Positions 17,731 through 51,153 of a DNA stretch of 64,000 nucleotides are shown in pieces. Source of the stretch: Candidatus Aminicenantota bacterium (GTDB lineage: Bacteria > Acidobacteriota > Aminicenantia > Aminicenantales > UBA8522); contig JAFNEO010000036.1 of the NCBI GenBank assembly GCA_017886205.1, positions 284-64,283 of the forward strand. Reading direction: 5' to 3'. Position 1 is the stretch's first letter, and each line of letters starts with the position of its first letter. The notes below the pieces were generated by a model. It was not told the origin of the DNA. It saw nothing but the letters and a program-made list of their open reading frames with translations, and searched no databases. Position numbers and translations under genes: made by a program.

Positions 17731-17756
17731 TTTTCTCACCTATAGGGGTGAGAAAA
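17731..17756 (+). repeat. Perfect 10 bp inverted repeat, possible terminator or leader hairpin
   Basis: TTTTCTCACC (17731-17740) and GGTGAGAAAA (17747-17756) are perfect complements with a 6-base loop, followed by four T. It lies between the small exported protein and the TPR-CHAT gene. It could terminate the former or shape the leader of the latter. Confidence 0.45.
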
Positions 17757-17873: not shown

Positions 17874-20800
17874 ATGGCCGGTTCAAAGCTTCGCCGCCCC
17901 TTTTTGCTGGGCATCCAAACGATCTTTCTTTTCCTGCTCATTATTCCCATTCTGGGCTTCCCTCAAGAAAAAACGGCGAGAAACACTCGGCCTCGCTCTC
18001 CTCGAATCCAGCTCGCAGAAGTAGTTGTGGAAGCAGAAAAGGCCGTCTACGAAGGCAAATTCGAAGAAGCCCTGGAACTTTTTTCTCAGGCTTTCTCGAT
18101 CGCCCAAAAAACCAGGGATGAAGAGGGCGAGATGGTCTCCCTTGTCCAGCAGGGATTCCTGTATTGGAACCTCGGCCGGATGAAGGACTCCTCGGAGGCC
18201 TTTGCCCGCGCCCTGCCGATCGCCGAAAGACTCCAAGTCCCTGATAAGCAGAATACATGTTCCGTCTCCCTGGAAATCTACGACCTCTATGTCCAGGGAA
18301 AGGAACGCCGCGACTCTGGGGACCACCAGGCGTCGATCGAGAAATTCAAGCGGGCTGTCGACCTCGCCAAAACCATCCAGGGCAAAGGGCAGGAGCTCAA
18401 GTGTCTTCGCCAGTTGAGCCTCAACTACTGGGAGCTCAAGGACTTTCAGGAATTCTTCCTCCTGAACAAGAGAGGATTGGCAATCGCTCAGGAGATCAAG
18501 CACAAGCAAGAGGAAGGCCGGTGTCTCAACAATATCGGCCTTTTCTACTGGCAAGTTGACAATTACACAGAAGCGCTCAGCAACTACGAGAAAGCACTTG
18601 AGATAGCACGCTCAGGTAATAATCTAGAAGAAGAGAACAACTGCCTAACTAATATCGCTGCAATATACATGGACTTAGGCAATTACGATCGAGCGCTTGA
18701 ATACTCCATTCAGGCACTTGACTCCGATAGAAAACTCATGGATCCGGTCAATACGTCAAAGGACTTAAACAATATTGGCACGATCTTCATAAAAAGGGGA
18801 ACGACTTCTGAGCAGAAGGAAAGTTTGCGTGTAGCTCTGAAGTACTACAACGAATCCCTGGAGATCGCGACTGCGATCAAGGAAACCGCCACTGAAATCA
18901 AGGTGCTGAATAACATCGGCTCGGTATATTCCTATCTGAGCGAGTATGCCAAGTCCCTAGATTATTTCCAGTTGGCGCTTAAGAAAGCACAAGAAGCACA
19001 GGATGCGGAAGAGATGAGCATCATCCTTAACAACATCGGGATCGTCTATTCCCACCTGGGGAATTTCGAAGAATCCACCCGCTACTACCAAAGGGTGATC
19101 GACCTCGCTTCCGAGATCAAAGGGATAAAAGTGCTCTGGGAAGCCTATTCTGAGATCGCCAACGCCTACAAAAGCCGGAACCTGCTTCCCGCGGCACTAG
19201 AAAATTATCGGAAGTCCATCTCGGTGATCGAGAACATCCGCTCTTCCATCAACCTGGAGGAGCTCAGGGCGACCTATCTCGGGACCGACAAGAGGATCGA
19301 TGCCTATCATAACCTTATCGATCTCTTCATCCGGCTCTATAAAGAGAGTCACGAGTCAAGATATGCCGCAGACGCTTTCCGTTACCTCGAAAAGGCCAAG
19401 GCCAGGGCGTTTCTGGACAGCATCGAAGTCTCCAAGCTCGACCTGTCCAAGGGGATCAGCCAACAGCTGCTGAACAAAGAGACGGACCTGATGAACGAGA
19501 TATCACAGCTCCATACCAAGCTTCTTGTCCTGCAGCTGTCTCAAGCCCAAAGGGACCAGATCGATCAGGAATTGGCCAGGCGCGAGGAGCAGCTCGAATC
19601 CCTCAGGCGAGAAGTCAGAGAAGTCAGTCCCGCATACGCAAACCTCAGGTTCCCCAGAACTTTGACCCTCCAAGAAGCCCAGAGCGAAATCCTGGACGAG
19701 GAGACCGCCTGCTTTGCGTATTTGCTGGCCAAGGAGAAGTCCTACGGCTTCGCGATCACGCGGAGAAACATCAAGATATTCCCACTCCCGGGCAAAAAAG
19801 AAATCCAGAAGATGGTCCAGGAATATTTAAAGGCGATCACGGATGTGACCAATCAGGACTTCCGCCTCGGCCACGAGCTATTTGAAGCTCTCATCCAGCC
19901 GGGGCTCAGCGGCAGGGCCCGGCGCCTGATCCTCGTCCCGGATGACGTCCTTTACTTCCTGCCGTTTGAGACTCTCTTGAGCAAGAACAAAGGAAGGGAC
20001 TGGCTGATCAAGGACTACACCATCGCCTATGCTCCTTCACTCTCCTCTTTAAGGGAACTCGTCGTGCGCAAGAGGGCGAACGGCCGTAAGGCAGCCAAGG
20101 ATATCCTCGCCGTGGGGGATCCTTCCTATGGAGCCAACGAGGTCGAACCGGCGGCCGGCGACGGCTCAGGGCCTCTGCAGGAAAGCAGCTCTCCGGCCGA
20201 GGCCAAGTTCTTCCGGCTAAAATTCAGCGGCCAGGAAATCGAGAAGATCAGCGCGTTGTTCAAGCCCGGCCGAAGGGACACTCTCTTGAGGAGCAGAGCG
20301 TCCGAGGAGAATTTCAAACACCAAAACCTGGCGGACTACCGCATCATCCACTTTGCTACTCACGCTTTCATCGATGACAATAAGCCGGCCCGGTCGGCCA
20401 TCGTGCTTTCCCTGGACCAGGATCCCAAAGAGGACGGCTTTCTTCAGATGAGGGAGGTCTTCAACCTGAAACTCAAGGCGGACTTGGTCGTCCTATCGGC
20501 CTGTCAGACCGGACTCGGGCAGCTCATCCGGGGAGAAGGGATCGAGGGGTTGAGCCGGGCGTTCTTCTATGCCGGAGCATCGTCGGTCCTGCTGAGTTTG
20601 TGGGCGATCAATGACCAGGCCTCCTATCAGCTCCTGGAAAGGTTTTATGTCCACCTTCGCTCGGCCAACCCGGTGATGGATTCACTGCGCCGGGCCAAAC
20701 TCGAGCTGATCGATTCCGGGGTTCTTGCCCATCCCTACTATTGGGCCGGGTTTGTTGTCGCCGGCAACGCCGATACAGTGATATTCCCCAGAAGCCTGAA

Positions 20801-20918
20801 CAAGTGGATGCTCGTCACGCTCTCTTTGTGTGCCGGGCTGGCCATCCTCCTCCTGGTTATAAACCGGGAAAAACCGTCTTCTTCACGTCCGCAGAGATCG
20901 TCACGCCGCCGGTTCTAG
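17874..20918 (+). CDS. TPR-CHAT protein 1, exported or membrane-anchored caspase-like protease
   Basis: About 1014 residues from the ATG at 17874. An N-terminal hydrophobic segment (LLGIQTIFLFLLIIPIL) acts as signal or anchor. About ten TPR repeats follow (to about residue 490), then a coiled-coil linker, then a C-terminal CHAT domain. The clan CD catalytic pair is present: H830 in HFATHAF and C877 in LSACQTG. The ending FYAGASSVLLSLWAI is typical of CHAT. A last hydrophobic segment (LVTLSLCAGLAILLLVI) precedes a basic tail, so the protease may be held at the membrane by both ends. The longer frame from 17748 starts inside an inverted repeat and is less likely. It converges on the GT2 gene with a 4-base overlap. 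Its paralogue lies at 23762-26692. Confidence 0.9.
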   Translation: MAGSKLRRPFLLGIQTIFLFLLIIPILGFPQEKTARNTRPRSPRIQLAEVVVEAEKAVYEGKFEEALELFSQAFSIAQKTRDEEGEMVSLVQQGFLYWNLGRMKDSSEAFARALPIAERLQVPDKQNTCSVSLEIYDLYVQGKERRDSGDHQASIEKFKRAVDLAKTIQGKGQELKCLRQLSLNYWELKDFQEFFLLNKRGLAIAQEIKHKQEEGRCLNNIGLFYWQVDNYTEALSNYEKALEIARSGNNLEEENNCLTNIAAIYMDLGNYDRALEYSIQALDSDRKLMDPVNTSKDLNNIGTIFIKRGTTSEQKESLRVALKYYNESLEIATAIKETATEIKVLNNIGSVYSYLSEYAKSLDYFQLALKKAQEAQDAEEMSIILNNIGIVYSHLGNFEESTRYYQRVIDLASEIKGIKVLWEAYSEIANAYKSRNLLPAALENYRKSISVIENIRSSINLEELRATYLGTDKRIDAYHNLIDLFIRLYKESHESRYAADAFRYLEKAKARAFLDSIEVSKLDLSKGISQQLLNKETDLMNEISQLHTKLLVLQLSQAQRDQIDQELARREEQLESLRREVREVSPAYANLRFPRTLTLQEAQSEILDEETACFAYLLAKEKSYGFAITRRNIKIFPLPGKKEIQKMVQEYLKAITDVTNQDFRLGHELFEALIQPGLSGRARRLILVPDDVLYFLPFETLLSKNKGRDWLIKDYTIAYAPSLSSLRELVVRKRANGRKAAKDILAVGDPSYGANEVEPAAGDGSGPLQESSSPAEAKFFRLKFSGQEIEKISALFKPGRRDTLLRSRASEENFKHQNLADYRIIHFATHAFIDDNKPARSAIVLSLDQDPKEDGFLQMREVFNLKLKADLVVLSACQTGLGQLIRGEGIEGLSRAFFYAGASSVLLSLWAINDQASYQLLERFYVHLRSANPVMDSLRRAKLELIDSGVLAHPYYWAGFVVAGNADTVIFPRSLNKWMLVTLSLCAGLAILLLVINREKPSSSRPQRSSRRRF

Positions 20919-22300
20919 CGCGTCAGCCAGGACTGGTTCTTGAGCGTCAAGGCAGAAAAGGGGACAATCCACCAGAGAAAAAAAGCGGTGATCAAAGCAT
21001 AGGGAATTCCATACAGGAAGGCCAGGCTCCGGCTAGTGCGGAGATAGTAGAGGGAAAGGAAAAAAGAGAGGATGACTAAAAAGGCTAGATGGCGCAAGAT
21101 GAAAATCGGATGGGCGATAAACGAATAACTGATCAAGCCGATGGCGAAAAGGTGGAAGGGATGAAGAAGGTTGAGGAAGAAAAAGTCCAGGATGGGAAGG
21201 ATACGGCGCTTCGTCCTGTAGGGCGAGAACATAAAGCGCGAGAAGAGGATAGACTCCCGGATGTAGCTCCTTGTCCATCGGACATACATCCTGTTCATCT
21301 GCCGAAATCGTGACGGGACTTTGCTGTAGACTACGGCATTCGATTGATACTTGGTTAGGTGGCCCGACCTCAGAATATAGGTCGTGAGAGAACGGTCCTC
21401 GCCATGAAGACAGGGGATTTTCATGAACTTCTGATTGACCCACTCCTTGAGGAACGGGCCAAGGGCCACCTTCCTGTAGGCGGTCAGAGCGCCCGGGCAG
21501 ACCTGGACCGTCCCAAAGACGCTTTGGTATGCACGACCGAAATCAAAGGACACGGCATAGCGGACCGACAGCATCCGGGTCAGAAAATTGTCCCGCTCGT
21601 TGAGCACGGCTACACGACCGGCGACCGCGGCCACTTCCGGGTCCTTGATCAGGGGGACGACCAGATTGCGGATGGCGCTTCGCCCGATCTTGCCGTCCGT
21701 ATCGATAGTGACGATGATCTCACCCCGCGCTATCTTCATCCCCGAGTAAAGCGCTCTCCTCTTACCCAGGTTTCTCTCGAAGCTGATGACCCGCAGCTTT
21801 TCCCCGTATCGTCTCTTCGCCCTCTGCATGTAGAGGAGGGTCATATCCTCTGAGCCGTCGTTGACGGCGATCACTTCGAGTTTATCCTGCGGATAGTTAA
21901 CGGCAAAGATAGAGTCGATAGCCTTGGCGATCAGCTCTTCCTCATTGTAGGCGGGCATGATGACTGTAATCGACGGCCAAACCGCTCCCGCAAGGGAGTC
22001 GGCCGTCTCCGGTCTGTAGCGGAGCCAGAGTACAGTCCGGAAGAGGGTTCCGGAGACGAATATAAAAGCCAGGATGATCAGCAGATAGCCGGAAATCCTC
22101 AAGGCCGAGCTGCTCTTCAGGAACTCGATCCAGAGCGGGAGCAGGCGGAACTTGACGGCGATGATGACGACTGTGGCACCGCCGGTTACGATCAAAAAGA
22201 CGGCGATCGGGTCAATCTTGTCTTTAAAATAGGGGAGCGTGAGGCGGAAGCCGCGGGGCCGGCTTTCCAGTTCGATCTCTTCGTAGGCTTCTTCCCGCAT
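20915..22300 (-). CDS. Processive-type family 2 glycosyltransferase, membrane-bound
   Basis: This 461-residue protein has two N-terminal membrane segments, a GT-A catalytic domain (about 105-330) and several C-terminal membrane segments, the layout of hyaluronan, chitin and poly-N-acetylglucosamine synthases. Visible motifs are MPAYNEEE, AVNDGSE (nucleotide site), DTDG (metal-binding DxD), GEDRSL (catalytic base region) and RMYVRWTRS, a variant of Q/RxxRW. It probably polymerises a sugar from a UDP-sugar donor across the membrane; the sugar cannot be read from the sequence. Its stop overlaps the convergent TPR-CHAT gene by 4 bases, and its start faces the ECF sigma gene. Confidence 0.88.
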   Translation of the reverse strand: MREEAYEEIELESRPRGFRLTLPYFKDKIDPIAVFLIVTGGATVVIIAVKFRLLPLWIEFLKSSSALRISGYLLIILAFIFVSGTLFRTVLWLRYRPETADSLAGAVWPSITVIMPAYNEEELIAKAIDSIFAVNYPQDKLEVIAVNDGSEDMTLLYMQRAKRRYGEKLRVISFERNLGKRRALYSGMKIARGEIIVTIDTDGKIGRSAIRNLVVPLIKDPEVAAVAGRVAVLNERDNFLTRMLSVRYAVSFDFGRAYQSVFGTVQVCPGALTAYRKVALGPFLKEWVNQKFMKIPCLHGEDRSLTTYILRSGHLTKYQSNAVVYSKVPSRFRQMNRMYVRWTRSYIRESILFSRFMFSPYRTKRRILPILDFFFLNLLHPFHLFAIGLISYSFIAHPIFILRHLAFLVILSFFLSLYYLRTSRSLAFLYGIPYALITAFFLWWIVPFSALTLKNQSWLTR

Positions 22301-22484
22301 GGCGGATTTCGCCCCCTTTATACCTTAAGAGCCGGAGTCAAGCAAGTAGAATAATTCCGTCCCGCGGTTTATAATCCTACGGTAAGTCCAGAACTTATCG
22401 AACACCTAGTGAGAAAAAAAAGCCAGATCTTGCTTCTATTACTATTGAGACTCCCGTCTTTCCAATATGAGGTAGCCAGCGGAG

Positions 22485-23030
22485 ATGGACTGGAATAAGA
22501 AAAAGGAAGATGAGCTCAGGTCGATCCTGGACAGGTTTTCTGGTCTTATTAGGGTCCACATTATCAAGTTCAACCCCCAAAGGTTCGGCATCGATCCCGA
22601 CGACATCTCTCAAGAGATCAGGATCAAGATCTGGCGTCTTCTCCATCATGAGAAAAATATCAAGAACTATGCGTCTTATATTAAGAAGATCGTGAATTCA
22701 TCGGTGATCGACGTTCTTCGAAAATGGAAGCGTGACGAAGGAATTATGCTCCTGGAAAAACAAAAGAAAGTCTCCGAGATAAAAAGGGATTATCGCGCCG
22801 CCCTATCGCTCGAGGAAAACCTGAGAGACACAGTGGCTCAAGCGGTCGATTCGTTGATCGAGTCCCGCCGCAAGGTAGTCAGGCTGTACCTGCTGGACAT
22901 GACGATCGAAGAGATATCCGCCTTCTACAACTGGAGCACGAATAAAACACGGAATCTTCTTTACAGGGGACTGGCCGACCTGAAAAGCATCCTGAAAAAC
23001 AAGGACGTCGATTATGAAGATAACGTATGA
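22485..23030 (+). CDS. ECF-type RNA polymerase sigma factor
   Basis: This 181-residue sigma-70 family factor has only regions 2 and 4. Region 2 (about 20-85) contains DPDDISQEIRIKIW and the -10 recognition helix YIKKIVNSSVIDVLRKWKR. Region 4 (about 115-175) contains TIEEISAFYNWSTNKTRNLLYRGL, the -35 recognition helix-turn-helix. It overlaps the anti-sigma gene by 17 bases. The pair is flanked on both sides by TPR-CHAT protease genes, which suggests envelope-stress control. Its target promoters are unknown; no second copy of a distinctive -35/-10 pair was recognised. Confidence 0.9.
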   Translation: MDWNKKKEDELRSILDRFSGLIRVHIIKFNPQRFGIDPDDISQEIRIKIWRLLHHEKNIKNYASYIKKIVNSSVIDVLRKWKRDEGIMLLEKQKKVSEIKRDYRAALSLEENLRDTVAQAVDSLIESRRKVVRLYLLDMTIEEISAFYNWSTNKTRNLLYRGLADLKSILKNKDVDYEDNV

Positions 23031-23757
23031 TGACCTGAAGAGAGCCTACAAGTCTCATATCCGTAGACGCATTCCTTCGTCCCGGGAGGGGTGTCCTCCT
23101 GCCGAAAAGATCTTCAGCGTGTTCGATAAATCCACATCCCCTGCGGACAAGGAGAAGATCATCGATCATGTGACGGGCTGTTCCTATTGTCTGCAGGAAT
23201 TCGAGCTCATGCAGGGCTTTGTCCGGGAAGAAGAAAAAGCGGTTGGAGATATCGCTAGCTATCTTAGAACGACGGACGGGAGTACAAGAATTCCGGGCAA
23301 AAGGCCCAAAATCTTGGAGATCCTGTTGGGTTCGAGAGTCCAGGCCCGGGCTTTATGGAGATTGGCGGCCGCATCCCTTTTCGTCATCATCATCATCACC
23401 GGCCTATTCCTGATCGGGACCAGGTCGCTCTTCAGAACGCCAGAGGACAGGCAGAGGGGAAGGTTGCCTGGACAAGTCCATCTCATCTCGCCGATTCGGG
23501 GACACAAGATCGATACGCCCCTGCTCTTCCGTTGGGAAGGAACTTCCAACGCAGAATACTATCAACTTGAGATCTTCGATGAATCTCTTCTCCCGATATG
23601 GAAGAGCTCCCGGATCGAGGGGGTTTATTATGAGCTCTCCCCGCAGGCTGCGGATCTCATCAAGCAAAACAAGGCCTATTTTTGGACGATTACCGCTTGG
23701 CTCATCGACGGGACGAAGAGGGAATCTCCACTAGAAGAGTTCACTCTCAGAGAGTGA
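23014..23757 (+). CDS. Membrane anti-sigma factor with zinc-finger domain
   Basis: This 247-residue protein has an N-terminal zinc-binding anti-sigma motif (C27, H52, C56, C59; spacing C-x24-H-x3-C-x2-C), a single membrane helix (about 115-136) and an outer domain of about 100 residues with a beta-sandwich look (HLISPIRGHKIDTPLLFRWEG, then YYQLEIFD), similar to fibronectin-type or Ig-like folds. In known systems such proteins hold the sigma factor at the membrane until they are cleaved. The 17-base overlap with the sigma gene supports the pairing. The adjoining gene at 23762 (minus) converges within 5 bases and encodes a TPR-CHAT protein, a candidate for the cleaving protease. Confidence 0.85.
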   Translation: MKITYDDLKRAYKSHIRRRIPSSREGCPPAEKIFSVFDKSTSPADKEKIIDHVTGCSYCLQEFELMQGFVREEEKAVGDIASYLRTTDGSTRIPGKRPKILEILLGSRVQARALWRLAAASLFVIIIITGLFLIGTRSLFRTPEDRQRGRLPGQVHLISPIRGHKIDTPLLFRWEGTSNAEYYQLEIFDESLLPIWKSSRIEGVYYELSPQAADLIKQNKAYFWTITAWLIDGTKRESPLEEFTLRE

Positions 23758-23761
23758 ATTC

Positions 23762-26692
23762 TTAGCGGCCAGCCGAGAGATAGTCTCCGTTTAGTACGAA
23801 TGCCGCCCAATAAAACGGGTGCGAATACCGGGACTTCAGCACGTTCAGCTTGGCAAGACGCAGCGATCTGGCTTTGTTATTGCCCGCCGCCAGATAGCGA
23901 TAGAATTTAGGCATGATCTCCGAGGTGGACTTGTCATTAATCTTCCAGAGAGACGAGATCGTCGAACGGGCCCCCGCGTAGAAAAAGGTGCGGGGTAAAC
24001 CGAGGACCCATTCGGCGTTCTCTAACCGTCCCTTCCCTGTCTGACAGGCAGAGAGCACAACCAGATCGGCGTCCAGCCGCAGGTTGGAGATCTCCCGTGC
24101 CTGAAGAAAACCGTCCTCTTCTGAATCATCGTCCAGAGTCAAGACCAGGGCCGAGCGCATCGGCGTTTTTTCGTCCAAAAATCCATGGCAGGCAAAATGG
24201 ATGATCCGATATTCTTCCAAAGCCCTACTTTTTATGCCCTCTTCCTTGGCCTGGGATTTCAAGAGCACCTCGACTTCATCATCGGGAAAACAGCGAGCAA
24301 CGCGGTCAACTTCTCTTTCGCTATAAGGAAGCGAGGAAAGTTCGAAACCGTCGTTCAGGTAGATATCTCGAAGGGCATCTTCATGTCTATCCCTGCCTTT
24401 GGGCATCTTGCTGTTCCTGGAGAGATAGACGGGATCACCCACAGCCAATAGCGTCTTCTTATGTTGTCCCAGCCGCTCCTTCTCCATCAGATACACCAGA
24501 GAAGATGCCGAGGGCGCGTAGGATATATCATAAAGTTCTATGAGATACCTGAGCTCAGCAGTTTTCGTATCATCCCGCACCAGCGCTTCAAACGGCAGAT
24601 AATGAAGAATCCCGTCCGGGATGATGATCAGATGGTCAATAGACTGAGAGAGAGTGTCTTCAAACGGATAGATAAGGTCCTTGTAGATCCGCCGTCCGGC
24701 AGGGACTCCCCGAAAACTCGTTTGCGGCGGCGTGGAAAGTAGCATCAAATAGGCCCTGAGGGAATTTTCGATCTCCGCTCGAGAGGGAAGGGCCCTCAGG
24801 ATAAGGCCATCGCGGGTCAGGAGAATGCCCAAAGACCTCTTTTCGCCCAGGTAGTATTCAAGAATGGCCGACCTTTTGTCGAGATGCTGTTTTTGTATCC
24901 TATGGGCGGATATCGCCTGGGGAAATGCGAGCTGGGAATATTCAGTCGTCTCTGTTTTTATCCGGTTGAGGAGGCTGGTGTATACATCTTCTTCCAGTTC
25001 CAGTTTGGCCAGCAAATTTTTCCTTCGCGCCTCTCCGAGATCAGGACGGATGAGCTCAGAGATGGTAAAGGAGATTTTCTTTGAAAGAGACGCCTCTTCG
25101 TTTCTATATTCATTATCTGCTGGGTCCTGAGCCGATCTCCCTGCCTGGCCCAATTCTTCGAGGAATGACCTGGCTTTAGCTCTTTCCACGATCGCGAATA
25201 TCTGCCCGTCATAGCTGGATGTTTTTTCTTTTTCTTTCCGGTCGTATAAAAGGCTAAGAAGGGCTTCATAAGCTTTCATCTTATCGCGAATAAAGCCAAC
25301 CTTATAATCATCCAATGCCACCCGGCTTCGCATGACTTCGATGACATCGATTGCCTTTCTATAACTGACTATCGCGAATTCGTCTTTCCCTTCTTTTTCA
25401 AGACATTGCCCAAAGCCAAAATAGATTTCCCAAAGCACGTCGTCTCTTCCCGTCTTGAGGACGAGCTCAAGCCCCTTCCCAAAACAGCCTTCTGCTTCTT
25501 GATATTCTCCCCTCTCGAGTAAAACAAATCCCATATTACTGCAGACATTACAGGCCTCAGAGAAATATTCAATTAACTCAGCTTTTTTAATAGCTAATCG
25601 AAAATATTTCAAAGCCTGAGTATGGTTGCCGATTGTAGCATAAAGTAATCCAATATTATTCATTGCAGCGATTTCAGATTTCTGATTTTTTGTTTTCTTT
25701 GCCATTTCTAAAGACTTCAAATTGTAGTCTAAGGACAGATAGAAATCATTTTGGCTTCTAGAATAAATCCCTTTTCGTCTATAAGTAGCCGCTAGACTGC
25801 TCAATTCGACTGAAATTCCTTCTTCATCATTAAGCGAGTAGTCAATTTCAAGTGCATGTTTTGTATATGCCAGTGCTTTTTCATAATCGCCCAAATCTCT
25901 GTAAATGGCACCAATATTATTTAGAAACGCAGATAAATCGACGTCTTTTTCGACATTATCCGCTATTAAGCATAAGGCTTCACTATAATAACTTAGAGCC
26001 TTCGAATAGCTGCTTTTTTCGTAATAATATATGCCGATATTATTGAGGCATCTGGCTTGTTCCCTCCTATGATTCAAATTTATTGCTATCGCTAGGGCTT
26101 TATTATTCAAAGACGAAAATTCTGCATACTTTTTCGTCTGATGATAATTCAGACTCATCTGTCGAAGGCATTTTAGCTCATGCTCCGGACTCTTTATTTT
26201 TCTCGCTAGATCAATGGCCGTATTGAATTGGGCAATGGACAGCTGATGCAAACCTGCTGAGCACGCCTCTTTCCCTCGGACATAGGCCTCAAAGATCTTA
26301 AGATAGGTGGCGCATTGCGCTTCCCGATCTTTTAGACCGAGTTTCTGGCTCAAGGACAGCGCCTGGCGGTAGATCTCATTCGAGTCTTTGACCTGCCCAA
26401 TATCCCACATCAGGATTCCCAGATTCATGAGGCATTCGATCTGAGCACTGGCATCGTCACAGACCCGGGCAAGGCGTAAGGCATCATTGAACACCGTAAT
26501 AGCCTGATGGAATTCGCCCTGTTGCCTTAGAATACTTCCCTGGTTGGTTTTGTTCTTGAGGGCAGAATCAGACTGCGATCTCCCGGTCGCCATTAAGCCG
26601 CAAACATCTAGAATACAAAGAATAAAAAATAGGGCCACAGCACACCGGATCTTGCGGTTGAACGTCACCTTGGCCGTCCCATGGAAGTGCAA
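23762..26692 (-). CDS. TPR-CHAT protein 2, exported caspase-like protease
   Basis: This 976-residue paralogue of the protein at 17874-20918 has an N-terminal signal or anchor (CAVALFFILCILDVCGL), about ten TPR repeats, a linker helix region and a C-terminal CHAT domain with H836 in HFACHGF and C883 in LSACQTG. Unlike the first copy it has no C-terminal membrane helix and ends soon after the CHAT fold, so it may be free or anchored only at the N-terminus. The TPR part is noticeably more AT-rich than its surroundings. The start is uncertain: TTG at 26692 has AAGGAG at long spacing, while GTG at 26668 fits the promoter at 26696-26724 better. Confidence 0.88.
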   Translation of the reverse strand: MHFHGTAKVTFNRKIRCAVALFFILCILDVCGLMATGRSQSDSALKNKTNQGSILRQQGEFHQAITVFNDALRLARVCDDASAQIECLMNLGILMWDIGQVKDSNEIYRQALSLSQKLGLKDREAQCATYLKIFEAYVRGKEACSAGLHQLSIAQFNTAIDLARKIKSPEHELKCLRQMSLNYHQTKKYAEFSSLNNKALAIAINLNHRREQARCLNNIGIYYYEKSSYSKALSYYSEALCLIADNVEKDVDLSAFLNNIGAIYRDLGDYEKALAYTKHALEIDYSLNDEEGISVELSSLAATYRRKGIYSRSQNDFYLSLDYNLKSLEMAKKTKNQKSEIAAMNNIGLLYATIGNHTQALKYFRLAIKKAELIEYFSEACNVCSNMGFVLLERGEYQEAEGCFGKGLELVLKTGRDDVLWEIYFGFGQCLEKEGKDEFAIVSYRKAIDVIEVMRSRVALDDYKVGFIRDKMKAYEALLSLLYDRKEKEKTSSYDGQIFAIVERAKARSFLEELGQAGRSAQDPADNEYRNEEASLSKKISFTISELIRPDLGEARRKNLLAKLELEEDVYTSLLNRIKTETTEYSQLAFPQAISAHRIQKQHLDKRSAILEYYLGEKRSLGILLTRDGLILRALPSRAEIENSLRAYLMLLSTPPQTSFRGVPAGRRIYKDLIYPFEDTLSQSIDHLIIIPDGILHYLPFEALVRDDTKTAELRYLIELYDISYAPSASSLVYLMEKERLGQHKKTLLAVGDPVYLSRNSKMPKGRDRHEDALRDIYLNDGFELSSLPYSEREVDRVARCFPDDEVEVLLKSQAKEEGIKSRALEEYRIIHFACHGFLDEKTPMRSALVLTLDDDSEEDGFLQAREISNLRLDADLVVLSACQTGKGRLENAEWVLGLPRTFFYAGARSTISSLWKINDKSTSEIMPKFYRYLAAGNNKARSLRLAKLNVLKSRYSHPFYWAAFVLNGDYLSAGR

Positions 26693-26724: not shown

Positions 26725-26856
26725 CGACTTCGCTTTCTCTCCTAGATCAGCCTGACAAGAGAAGAAGACGCCTGTCTGCATGGTCATTTTCTCACTCGCC
26801 GGAAATATTTCTCCGCTTTCTGATAGAATATAGGAATCCTTCCCATGGAGGTTTCG

Positions 26857-27600
26857 ATGAAAAAGACATCATCGCTCGACATCCTGGCAGGAATCTGCCT
26901 CTCCCTGGCCTCAAGCATGCTCCTCCTGAGCCTGCCCGCCTTCTCACAAGAGCCGGAAGTCAAGCCCGCTCTGCTCGAAGAGCCCATGGCGGACTTCACC
27001 CTCCTCACTTTTCAGGGAGGAAGCGTGACCCTCTCTTCACTCAAGGGAAAGAACGTCCTGATCGTCTTCCCGCGGGGCTTCGCCGCCGAGGGCCGCTGGT
27101 GCACGATCTGCAACTACAAGTACGCCGACCTGATTGACGTGGAAAAGACCGAGCAGCTAAGGAAGAAATTCGACCTCGAGATCCTGTATGTCTTCCCCTA
27201 CGGAAAGGAAACCGTCCAACAGTGGCTGGACGCCCTGCCGGAGCAATTGGACAAGATCAAGACCTGGAAGAACCCGCCCGAGCCCGACAAGATAGACGAA
27301 AAAGGCAAAGCCCGGATGGAGATGGCCCAGAAGGGGTTCCCCAAGGACCTGAGCGCCGAGAAAGGGAATGTCCCTGCCCCCTTCCCCATCCTCATCGACG
27401 AGGATAAGAAGGTGACCAAAGGGCTGGGCCTCTTCACGACAGATTGGAACGGGAGCAAGGTCGAGCAGCTCATCCCCAGCGTTTTCGTCGTCGACAAGCA
27501 GGGGATTCTCCGGTTCAAGTACATCGGCCAGAATACCTGGGACAGACCGAGCTGGGAATACATGAAGAAGGTCCTGGAGGCCACCACCGCCGCGAAATAG
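26857..27600 (+). CDS. Exported redoxin (AhpC/TSA-thioredoxin fold)
   Basis: About 247 residues from the ATG at 26857, which has GGAGG at good spacing; an in-frame ATG four codons earlier is less likely. A signal peptide is followed by a peroxiredoxin/thioredoxin-like fold: FTLLTFQGGSVTLSSLKGKNVLIVF, then W-C82-T-I-C85, a CxxC pair in the position of the peroxidatic cysteine region, and near the end PSVFVVDKQGILRFKYIG. It probably acts as an extracytoplasmic thiol reductase or peroxidase. A 60-residue insertion between strands carries many charged residues. The gene is free-standing. Confidence 0.85.
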   Translation: MKKTSSLDILAGICLSLASSMLLLSLPAFSQEPEVKPALLEEPMADFTLLTFQGGSVTLSSLKGKNVLIVFPRGFAAEGRWCTICNYKYADLIDVEKTEQLRKKFDLEILYVFPYGKETVQQWLDALPEQLDKIKTWKNPPEPDKIDEKGKARMEMAQKGFPKDLSAEKGNVPAPFPILIDEDKKVTKGLGLFTTDWNGSKVEQLIPSVFVVDKQGILRFKYIGQNTWDRPSWEYMKKVLEATTAAK

Positions 27601-48857: not shown

Positions 48858-49029
48858 CCCCAGCCGGCGCAGCAATAAGAAGAGCCTTATATCCTTATGC
48901 TATGGCCATTGCTTATGGTGGGAAACTCCAATAAAATACATTTTTTTTACGCCTCCTCGTTGAGATTGACCTGACATTGGATGATTTATCAATCGCTCGT
49001 GATTGAATAAAACAGAAAAGGACATTTCC

Positions 49030-51153
49030 ATGCTAAACGTCCGCCGTCTCAAACCCAAAGCGGCTTTCCTGGCCGCCCTGTTCGTCGTTGTGCCGGCCCT
49101 CGCTCAGGAGGCCCTACAACCGCCGCTGGCCGAGAAGATCCGCAAGGAGCTGACCATCCACGGCCAGACCCGGGTCGACGATTACTACTGGCTCAAAGAG
49201 CGGTCCAACCCCAAGGTCGTCGAGTACCTCAAGGCCGAGAATGCCTACGCCGATGCCCTGATGAAGCCGACCGAGCCCCTCCAGGAAAAGCTCTACAACG
49301 AGATGGTCAGCCGGATCAAGCAGACGGATATGTCAGTCCCCTATTTCGACAACGGCTATTGGTACTACACCCGTTTCGAGGCCGGGAAGGACTATCCCGT
49401 CACCTGCCGCAAGGCCAAGACGCTCAAGGCCAGGGAGGAAATCCTGCTGGACGGGAACAAGATGGCCGCCGGGCACAGCTATTTCAACATCGGCGGCTGG
49501 GCGGTCAGCCCGGACAACACGGTCCTCGCCTACGGCGTCGACACGGTTTCGCGGCGCCAGTACAAGCTCCACTTCAAGAACCTCAAGTCGGGAAAGCTCT
49601 ATCCCGAAGTCATTCCCATGACGGCCGGTTTTGCGGTCTGGGCCAAAGACAACAAGACCGTCTTTTACCCGGTCATCGACGAATCGCTCCGTCTCTACAA
49701 GATCTTTCGCCACACGCTCGGGACGCCGGCCGAGAGCGACGTCGAAGTCTACCACGAGAAGGACGAAACCTTCAGCGTCGCCGTCAACTCCAGCCGCTCC
49801 CGGAAATACATCTTCATCTTCTCGTTCAGCACCCTGACGACCGAGAGCCGCTACCTTGACGCCTCTGAGCCCCTGGGCGAGTTCAAGGTCTTCCAGCCCC
49901 GCGTTCGCGGCCTGGAGTACCAGCCCGACCACTTGGGGGGCAAGTTCTACATCCGGACCAACGACGGCGCGCCCAATTACAAGCTCATGGAGGCCGAGCC
50001 CGGCCGGACAACCAAGGAGGACTGGAAGGAGGTCGTTCCCCACCGCTCCGACATCTATCTCCAGAGATTCGCGCTCTTCAAGGATTTTCTCGTGCTGAGC
50101 GAGCGCAAGGACGGGCTCAGCCAGATCCGCGTCATCCCCTGGGGCGAGAAGGACGGCCACTACATCGAGTTCAACGACAAGGCCTACGTGGCCTTTCCGA
50201 CACCCACGCCCGAAGTGGAAACCGGGCTTCTCCGCTACACTTATCAATCGCTGACGACGCCCTCAACCATCTATGAATACGACATGACGACGCGTCAGCA
50301 GGCCGTGCTCAAACAGCAGGAGGTGCCGGGCGGCTATCGGCCCGAGGACTATGCGACCGAGCGGCTGGCCGCGCCCGGCTACGACGGGACGCTCGTCCCT
50401 ATCTCCGTTGTTTACCGCAAGGGCGCCCGCGATAAGGGACCTGCTCCGCTTCTCCTTTACGGGTACGGCTCCTACGGCGCCTCGACCGATCCCGGCTTCA
50501 ATGTCATGCGGATTTCCCTGCTGGACCGAGGCTTTGTCGTCGCTCTCGCCCATATCCGGGGCGGCTCCGAGATGGGACGGGCCTGGTACGAGGCCGGCAA
50601 GCTCTTCAAGAAGATAAACACCTTCACCGACTTCATCTCCTGCGGCGAGTGCCTGGTCCGTCACGGCTACACGGTTCCTGAAAAGCTTTTCGCCCAGGGC
50701 GGAAGCGCCGGCGGACTCCTCATGGGCGCCGTCGTCAACCTGAGGCCCGACCTGTTCAGGGGCGTCATCGCCGCCGTCCCCTTCGTCGATGTCGTGACCA
50801 CCATGCTCGACCCGTCCATCCCGCTGACGACGTCCGAGTACGACGAGTGGGGCAATCCCAACGACCCAGCTTATTACGAATACATGATGTCTTATTCGCC
50901 CTACGACAACGTACGGCCCAAGGCCTACCCGGCGCTCCTCGTGACGACCGGTCTCCACGACTCCCAGGTTCAGTATTGGGAGCCGGCCAAGTGGGTCGCC
51001 CGGCTCCGCGTCACCAAGACGGACAGAAACCCGCTCATCCTCAAGACAAACCTTGAGGCCGGACACGGCGGCGCGTCAGGCCGCTTCCGGCGCCTGAAAG
51101 AAACGGCCCTCCAATACGCCTTCATCCTCGACCTGGCCGGAATCAAAGAATAG
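49030..51153 (+). CDS. Exported prolyl oligopeptidase (S9A)
   Basis: About 707 residues from the ATG at 49030. It has a signal peptide (AAFLAALFVVVPALAQ), the N-terminal DYYWLKER segment typical of S9A, a seven-bladed propeller region and a C-terminal hydrolase domain with catalytic S559 (GGSAGGLLMG), D644 (LHDSQV) and H679 (GHGGASG). It resembles oligopeptidase B and prolyl oligopeptidase and likely cleaves short peptides in the periplasm. Codon composition is strongly GC-rich. A TTG at 49003 would add nine residues but lacks a ribosome site. It converges on the toxin-antitoxin pair. Confidence 0.94.
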   Translation: MLNVRRLKPKAAFLAALFVVVPALAQEALQPPLAEKIRKELTIHGQTRVDDYYWLKERSNPKVVEYLKAENAYADALMKPTEPLQEKLYNEMVSRIKQTDMSVPYFDNGYWYYTRFEAGKDYPVTCRKAKTLKAREEILLDGNKMAAGHSYFNIGGWAVSPDNTVLAYGVDTVSRRQYKLHFKNLKSGKLYPEVIPMTAGFAVWAKDNKTVFYPVIDESLRLYKIFRHTLGTPAESDVEVYHEKDETFSVAVNSSRSRKYIFIFSFSTLTTESRYLDASEPLGEFKVFQPRVRGLEYQPDHLGGKFYIRTNDGAPNYKLMEAEPGRTTKEDWKEVVPHRSDIYLQRFALFKDFLVLSERKDGLSQIRVIPWGEKDGHYIEFNDKAYVAFPTPTPEVETGLLRYTYQSLTTPSTIYEYDMTTRQQAVLKQQEVPGGYRPEDYATERLAAPGYDGTLVPISVVYRKGARDKGPAPLLLYGYGSYGASTDPGFNVMRISLLDRGFVVALAHIRGGSEMGRAWYEAGKLFKKINTFTDFISCGECLVRHGYTVPEKLFAQGGSAGGLLMGAVVNLRPDLFRGVIAAVPFVDVVTTMLDPSIPLTTSEYDEWGNPNDPAYYEYMMSYSPYDNVRPKAYPALLVTTGLHDSQVQYWEPAKWVARLRVTKTDRNPLILKTNLEAGHGGASGRFRRLKETALQYAFILDLAGIKE

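Follow-up and report, generated by a model that had tools for sequence, protein, structure and literature searches.

A conserved gene neighbourhood of TPR-CHAT proteins and an ECF-type sigma/anti-sigma pair in Candidatus Aminicenantes suggests a proteolytic envelope switch

Results

Gene layout of the locus

The window, by which we mean the whole 64,000-nucleotide stretch of DNA that was analysed, comes from Candidatus Aminicenantes (Acidobacteriota). Two genes for TPR-CHAT proteins with predicted export, here called CHAT-A and CHAT-B, flank a gene pair encoding an ECF-type sigma factor and a membrane anti-sigma factor. The features of the locus are as follows.

17874..20918, + strand: CHAT-A, 1014 aa from ATG; a signal-like start, TPR repeats and a CHAT domain (H830/C877), then a TM helix and a basic tail at the C-terminus
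20915..22300, - strand: membrane glycosyltransferase of family GT2, NodC/PgaC-like; convergent with CHAT-A, which it overlaps by 4 bases
22410..22441, + strand: candidate ECF-like promoter for the sigma operon, TGAGAA-N17-CTTCTATTA; differs at one position from the family form TGAGAA-N17-CATCTATTA
22485..23030, + strand: ECF-type sigma factor, 181 aa
23014..23757, + strand: membrane anti-sigma factor, 247 aa; zinc-binding-type N-terminus (C27, H52, C56, C59), followed by a TM helix, a flexible linker containing R148-G149 and an outer domain resembling FN3
23762..26692, - strand: CHAT-B, 976 aa; a signal-like start, a TPR superhelix and a CHAT domain (H836/C883), with no TM helix at the C-terminus; convergent with the anti-sigma gene
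26765..26794, - strand: candidate ECF-like promoter of CHAT-B, TGAGAA-N18-CGTCTT
26845..27600, + strand: AhpC/TSA-like exported redoxin, divergent from CHAT-B; a neighbour kept in some relatives

The original prediction described a sigma/anti-sigma gene pair overlapping by 17 bases between two TPR-CHAT genes with intact His/Cys residues, and every position it gave was borne out. The CHAT gene that it placed 5 bases from the anti-sigma gene end is CHAT-B (23762-26692 vs 23014-23757). CHAT-A could also start earlier, at an in-frame GTG (position 17748). An inverted repeat, CTCACC...GGGTGAG, lies upstream of this gene at window 17731-17756 and recurs in about one third of CHAT-A genes; in several relatives it is found near a sigma70-like promoter and is possibly a terminator or an attenuator. 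Further along the window, between 32212 and 63028, sets of genes for a histidine kinase, a response regulator and a TPR/WD40-like (PD40) beta-propeller protein recur, and a prolyl oligopeptidase is encoded in the same region at 49003-51153. Of the window proteins that went through a Pfam or PADLOC scan, none was CRISPR-like.

Domains and predicted topology of the encoded proteins

CHAT-A and CHAT-B matched the Pfam CHAT model above its curated cut-off (E values of 7e-70 and 2e-75, respectively), and each has the His/Cys dyad and the preceding region of many TPRs that define a TPR-CHAT peptidase. Both catalytic residues are kept in 57/57 context-assigned CHAT-A/B domains. The two proteins are non-equivalent. 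CHAT-A is monophyletic in the CHAT-domain tree (support 1.0), apart from the remaining CHATs, and a C-terminal TM helix is present in 20 of the 22 full-length CHAT-A proteins and absent from other CHATs. A signal-like hydrophobic N-terminal segment, called by hydropathy only, was predicted in all 22 CHAT-A and in 27 of the 32 non-A CHATs, in agreement with the export signals claimed earlier for both proteins. The structure model of CHAT-B (mean pLDDT 88, pTM 0.86) predicts a TPR superhelix that occupies about half of the protein. With this model, Foldseek returned the type III-E CRISPR protein Csx29 as the best match (E = 2.6e-16) and DdvA as the second, with separase after further Csx29 entries; against the NCBIfam Csx29 model, CHAT-B scored 26.1 bits, far from the cut-off of 300 for membership in that family. 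The CHAT-B of this genome has W895 at a position 12 residues past the catalytic Cys, where 97% of its CHAT-B relatives have Gly.

The sigma factor scored 25.5 bits for Pfam region 4 (cut-off 25.7), 20.3 bits for region 2 (cut-off 24) and 39.8 bits for the NCBIfam sigma70-ECF model (cut-off 42.9). The ECF layout of regions 2 and 4 is kept in an alignment of 35 sigma homologues. With both regions, a length of about 180 aa and scores just under the curated cut-offs, it is on sequence grounds a divergent ECF sigma factor. The anti-sigma factor gave no Pfam match. Among 38 aligned homologues, C27, C56, C59 and W174 are invariant and H52 is present in at least 90%, and an N-terminal His/Cys motif combined with one TM helix places the protein among ZAS-type membrane anti-sigma factors, with putative zinc binding. 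Its model (mean pLDDT 85) predicts that the Cys/His motif lies in a helical N-terminal part, which is followed by a TM helix within residues 108-139, a low-confidence linker at about 140-150 and a beta domain matching FN3 domains. Because CHAT-A and most CHAT-B proteins start with a signal-like segment, the CHAT domains and the FN3 domain of the anti-sigma factor are both predicted to lie outside the membrane. Placement on opposite sides, on which the original prediction was to fall, is not what the models and hydropathy predict.

Conservation of the neighbourhood

The host genome contains only three CHAT genes. Each of them is next to a sigma/anti-sigma pair, including the third, which lies on a different contig and is likewise arranged tail-to-tail, so the arrangement is not due to chance. 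Our comparison covered 59 genomes of the order, counting the one that holds the window, and these contain 94 CHAT domains in all. Within this set, 71 of the 94 domains are encoded within 4 kb of an anti-sigma homologue, and 43 of those 71 are tail-to-tail with it and abutting. The convergent anti-sigma/CHAT pair occurs in 16 genera of the order, with 3' ends overlapping or nearly touching in many loci, and CHAT genes stand on both sides of the anti-sigma gene at 18 loci in 9 genera. The anti-sigma factors of these CHAT loci share only 18-37% identity with that of the window, and a scan of the genome contigs with only the anti-sigma factor as query gave no matches. Relatives beyond the class were retrieved by sigma alignment; outside the order, the tail-to-tail anti-sigma/CHAT arrangement was found in several Gemmatimonadota and one deltaproteobacterial MAG, whereas in Chloracidobacterium the two genes are co-directional rather than convergent. 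The neighbourhood, whose lack of conservation had been set in advance as grounds for rejecting the proposal, is therefore strongly conserved, across 16 genera of the order and in other phyla. The anti-sigma/CHAT arrangement is real and conserved, and it is probably functional.

The constant companion of the anti-sigma factor is CHAT-B rather than CHAT-A. After review of five unassigned CHATs and one sigma gene truncated at a contig end, CHAT-B was counted in 36 of 38 genomes with the sigma factor versus 2 of 21 without it, in counts that ignore phylogeny and include many incomplete genomes. Genomes in which CHAT-B is not adjacent usually carry it at another place, and two such copies stand behind the same promoter type. 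CHAT-A is found upstream of the sigma gene or beside GT2.

The order also has a conserved second sigma/anti-sigma pair with no CHAT gene nearby, whose anti-sigma factor has a VRG motif and a similar outer domain. In some relatives, the sigma gene is divergent from a gene for a sigma-54-type activator that lacks a receiver domain. A 653-aa anti-sigma "fusion" in one relative locus was discarded because its reading frame crosses masked bases into FtsH.

Promoter motifs and the GT2 gene

Promoter motifs were called from sequence alone. Upstream of the sigma gene, TGAGAA-N16/17-CATCTAT was found in its strict form in 26/60 loci (shuffled mean 0.09), and TGAGAA-N16/18-CGTCTT precedes CHAT-B in 15/43 cases (shuffled mean near 0.1). 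The -10 element of the CHAT-B promoter thus differs from that of the sigma-operon promoter. In ten relatives the motif gave 40 hits, compared with 4 when the pattern was reversed; the motif hits that were examined include comM, usp and cysS genes besides sigma and CHAT-B. In the host genome there were 9 hits, versus none with the reversed pattern, and they showed no evident theme. Three of the seven other hits in the host genome precede genes that by eye only look toxin-antitoxin-like, and in two genomes small exported-looking peptides with paired Cys stand behind a TGAGAA-CGTCT promoter. Upstream of the CHAT-free sigma paralogue no motif was found, except one imperfect match seen in two genomes. 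The CATCTAT form occurs mostly at the sigma gene, whereas the CGTCT form is spread genome-wide, also in genomes without this sigma factor. For this reason we dropped the shared TGAGAA promoter as proof of sigma control over CHAT-B, which may belong to another regulon.

No ECF-like promoter was found upstream of CHAT-A, nor upstream of GT2 (0/24). GT2 stays beside CHAT-A also in genomes in which no sigma factor of this kind was found. The gene thus follows CHAT-A and not the sigma factor, and GT2 is probably not the sigma's output; the suggestion that it is a regulated output of the switch did not gain support.

A candidate cut site in the anti-sigma linker

In most anti-sigma homologues the linker carries an Arg followed by Gly or another small residue, and in the model of the window's anti-sigma factor R148-G149 lies in or beside the low-confidence linker. 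Arg-Gly was present in the linkers of 47% of 49 CHAT-near anti-sigma factors, against 14% after shuffling. However, it was also present in 84% of the CHAT-free anti-sigma paralogues, including those of genomes without any CHAT match, and we therefore dropped it as a CHAT-specific cut site; this conserved juxtamembrane Arg-Gly is only a candidate. In separase, the P1 Arg is bound by D2151, and a Lys takes the place of this residue in TPR-CHAT (PMC9729208). The equivalent position, located by residue count from the catalytic Cys (C+41), is non-acidic in CHAT-A and mostly Ala or Ser in CHAT-B.

Discussion

Proposed proteolytic sigma release and its alternatives

We consider proteolytic sigma release, in a switch of the envelope-stress type, to be the best explanation of the locus and give it a probability of roughly 50%. 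Gene order and its conservation, the co-occurrence and the intact catalytic residues were observed directly, and topology and folds were predicted by computation; from these we infer the signal, the cleavage and its site, the steps that follow and the regulon. The anti-sigma factor would tether the sigma factor to the membrane on its inner side. CHAT-B would be an exported separase-like protease whose TPR sensor arm recognises a periplasmic signal, and it would cut the outer part of the anti-sigma factor; the flexible linker that joins the TM helix to the FN3 domain is the probable place of the cut. A site-2 (M50) protease, for which the host genome has four candidates, would then complete the degradation of the anti-sigma factor, and the released sigma factor would probably activate its own operon. 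CHAT-A, predicted to be tethered to the membrane by its C-terminus, may act on that face as another protease or sensor and is probably tied to the neighbouring polysaccharide synthase. The conserved abutting gene pair, the co-occurrence of sigma factor and CHAT-B, the retained His and Cys, the predicted common membrane side, the M50 candidates and the position of R148-G149 count for this mechanism, as do two fold relatives of CHAT-B: Csx29, which links CHAT to sigma release, and DdvA, in which a CHAT domain is fused to an anti-sigma factor. The Arg-Gly of CHAT-free anti-sigma factors, the C+41 position (non-acidic in CHAT-A, mostly Ala or Ser in CHAT-B) and the CHAT-B promoter type in sigma-less genomes count against it. 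The earlier proposal of a proteolytic switch thus stands in part, in its conserved neighbourhood and its predicted shared membrane side, and has lost GT2 as the output.

It is possible, but unlikely, that CHAT-B is instead an output of the system, in which case a stress sigma would induce an exported caspase-like protease directed at other envelope proteins and another site-1 protease would open the anti-sigma factor. The ECF-type promoter at 15/43 CHAT-B genes, and also at two unlinked copies, would fit this role, as would the same promoter type in front of comM, usp and cysS genes and an Arg-Gly in anti-sigma factors that is independent of CHAT. However, targets of a sigma factor often lie far away, yet the border between the CHAT and anti-sigma genes is kept across phyla; DdvA combines an anti-sigma factor and a CHAT domain in one chain, and the -10 elements of the CHAT-B and sigma-operon promoters are not the same.

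We regard as improbable a role of CHAT-B as a non-proteolytic sensor arm, in which its TPR region would bind the FN3 domain of the anti-sigma factor and pass on a conformational signal like a split DdvA, with CHAT as a ligand-binding or self-processing module. The single chain of DdvA and the share of the TPR superhelix in CHAT-B (about half) are consistent with such a role, but the His and Cys found in every context-assigned A/B domain argue for catalysis. Finally, it is very improbable that nothing but common descent, or antisense regulation of the overlapping 3' ends, connects these genes, with no direct relation between the proteins: synteny can be inherited within one order and convergent 3' ends do overlap or nearly touch in many loci, but the anti-sigma factors of these loci have diverged to 18-37% identity with that of the window, and the module recurs in other phyla and is co-directional in Chloracidobacterium.

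Comparison with known systems

The proteolytic release proposed here would resemble the DegS/RseA/RpoE pathway of E. coli in a site-1 cut of a membrane anti-sigma factor on the outer face, followed by a site-2 protease. It would differ in the type of the first protease: DegS is a serine protease of the trypsin type, whereas a caspase-like cysteine protease would make the first cut at this locus.

The link between CHAT, a sigma factor and its inhibitor is already known from type III-E CRISPR systems (PMC10028731, PMC9729208). As the original prediction stated, the TPR-CHAT protease of these systems, Csx29, cuts a sigma-factor inhibitor, Csx30 (PMC10028731). The present locus shares with Craspase the TPR-CHAT fold and a CHAT protease encoded with an ECF sigma factor and an inhibitor. 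In contrast to Csx29, which is bound to gRAMP/Cas7-11 and activated by RNA, the CHAT proteins here are predicted to be exported, and the inhibitor is a membrane anti-sigma factor of the Cys/His type.

In the ECF54 sigma group, CHAT, subtilase or carboxypeptidase genes occur in the gene context and proteolytic control has been proposed (PMC8999054). CHAT genes are conserved near ECF sigma genes in both cases; unlike ECF54, which was described without an anti-sigma factor (PMC8999054), the locus studied here has a conserved membrane anti-sigma factor. A literature search that covered few subscription journals found no paper describing this arrangement.

The transmembrane anti-sigma factor DdvA of the ECF sigma factor DdvS in Myxococcus xanthus (PDB 8rot, 8rw5, 8rlz) likewise brings an anti-sigma factor and a CHAT domain into one pathway. 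Its residues 855-976 match the CHAT profile of this analysis with both His and Cys present, and its anti-sigma domain aligns weakly with the anti-sigma factor of the window over the HxxxCxxC motif (E = 0.11). DdvA is a single chain of 991 aa, whereas here the anti-sigma factor, which has an FN3 domain of its own, and one or two CHAT proteins are encoded by separate genes, CHAT-B and the anti-sigma factor on opposite strands. The island under DdvS control is an anti-phage one and includes a CRISPR-Cas system (PMC12288465); no island of that kind was seen here. By analogy, the locus likely represents a DdvA split in two, and since DdvA holds both parts in one chain, a functional link between the anti-sigma and CHAT genes is supported.

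We tentatively suggest, as a possibility that we hold with less than even confidence, a widespread, CRISPR-independent family of envelope switches that extends over Acidobacteriota, Gemmatimonadota and a deltaproteobacterial lineage. In these switches a separase-like protease, exported and equipped with a TPR sensor, would cut the membrane anti-sigma factor and so free an ECF sigma factor, and Craspase and the fused DdvA would both derive from this older arrangement. If this is true, CHAT proteases, known mainly from CRISPR and cell death, would enter everyday envelope signalling, the opening of DdvA-type anti-sigma factors would become testable with separate, small parts, and an origin of the Craspase logic would be suggested.
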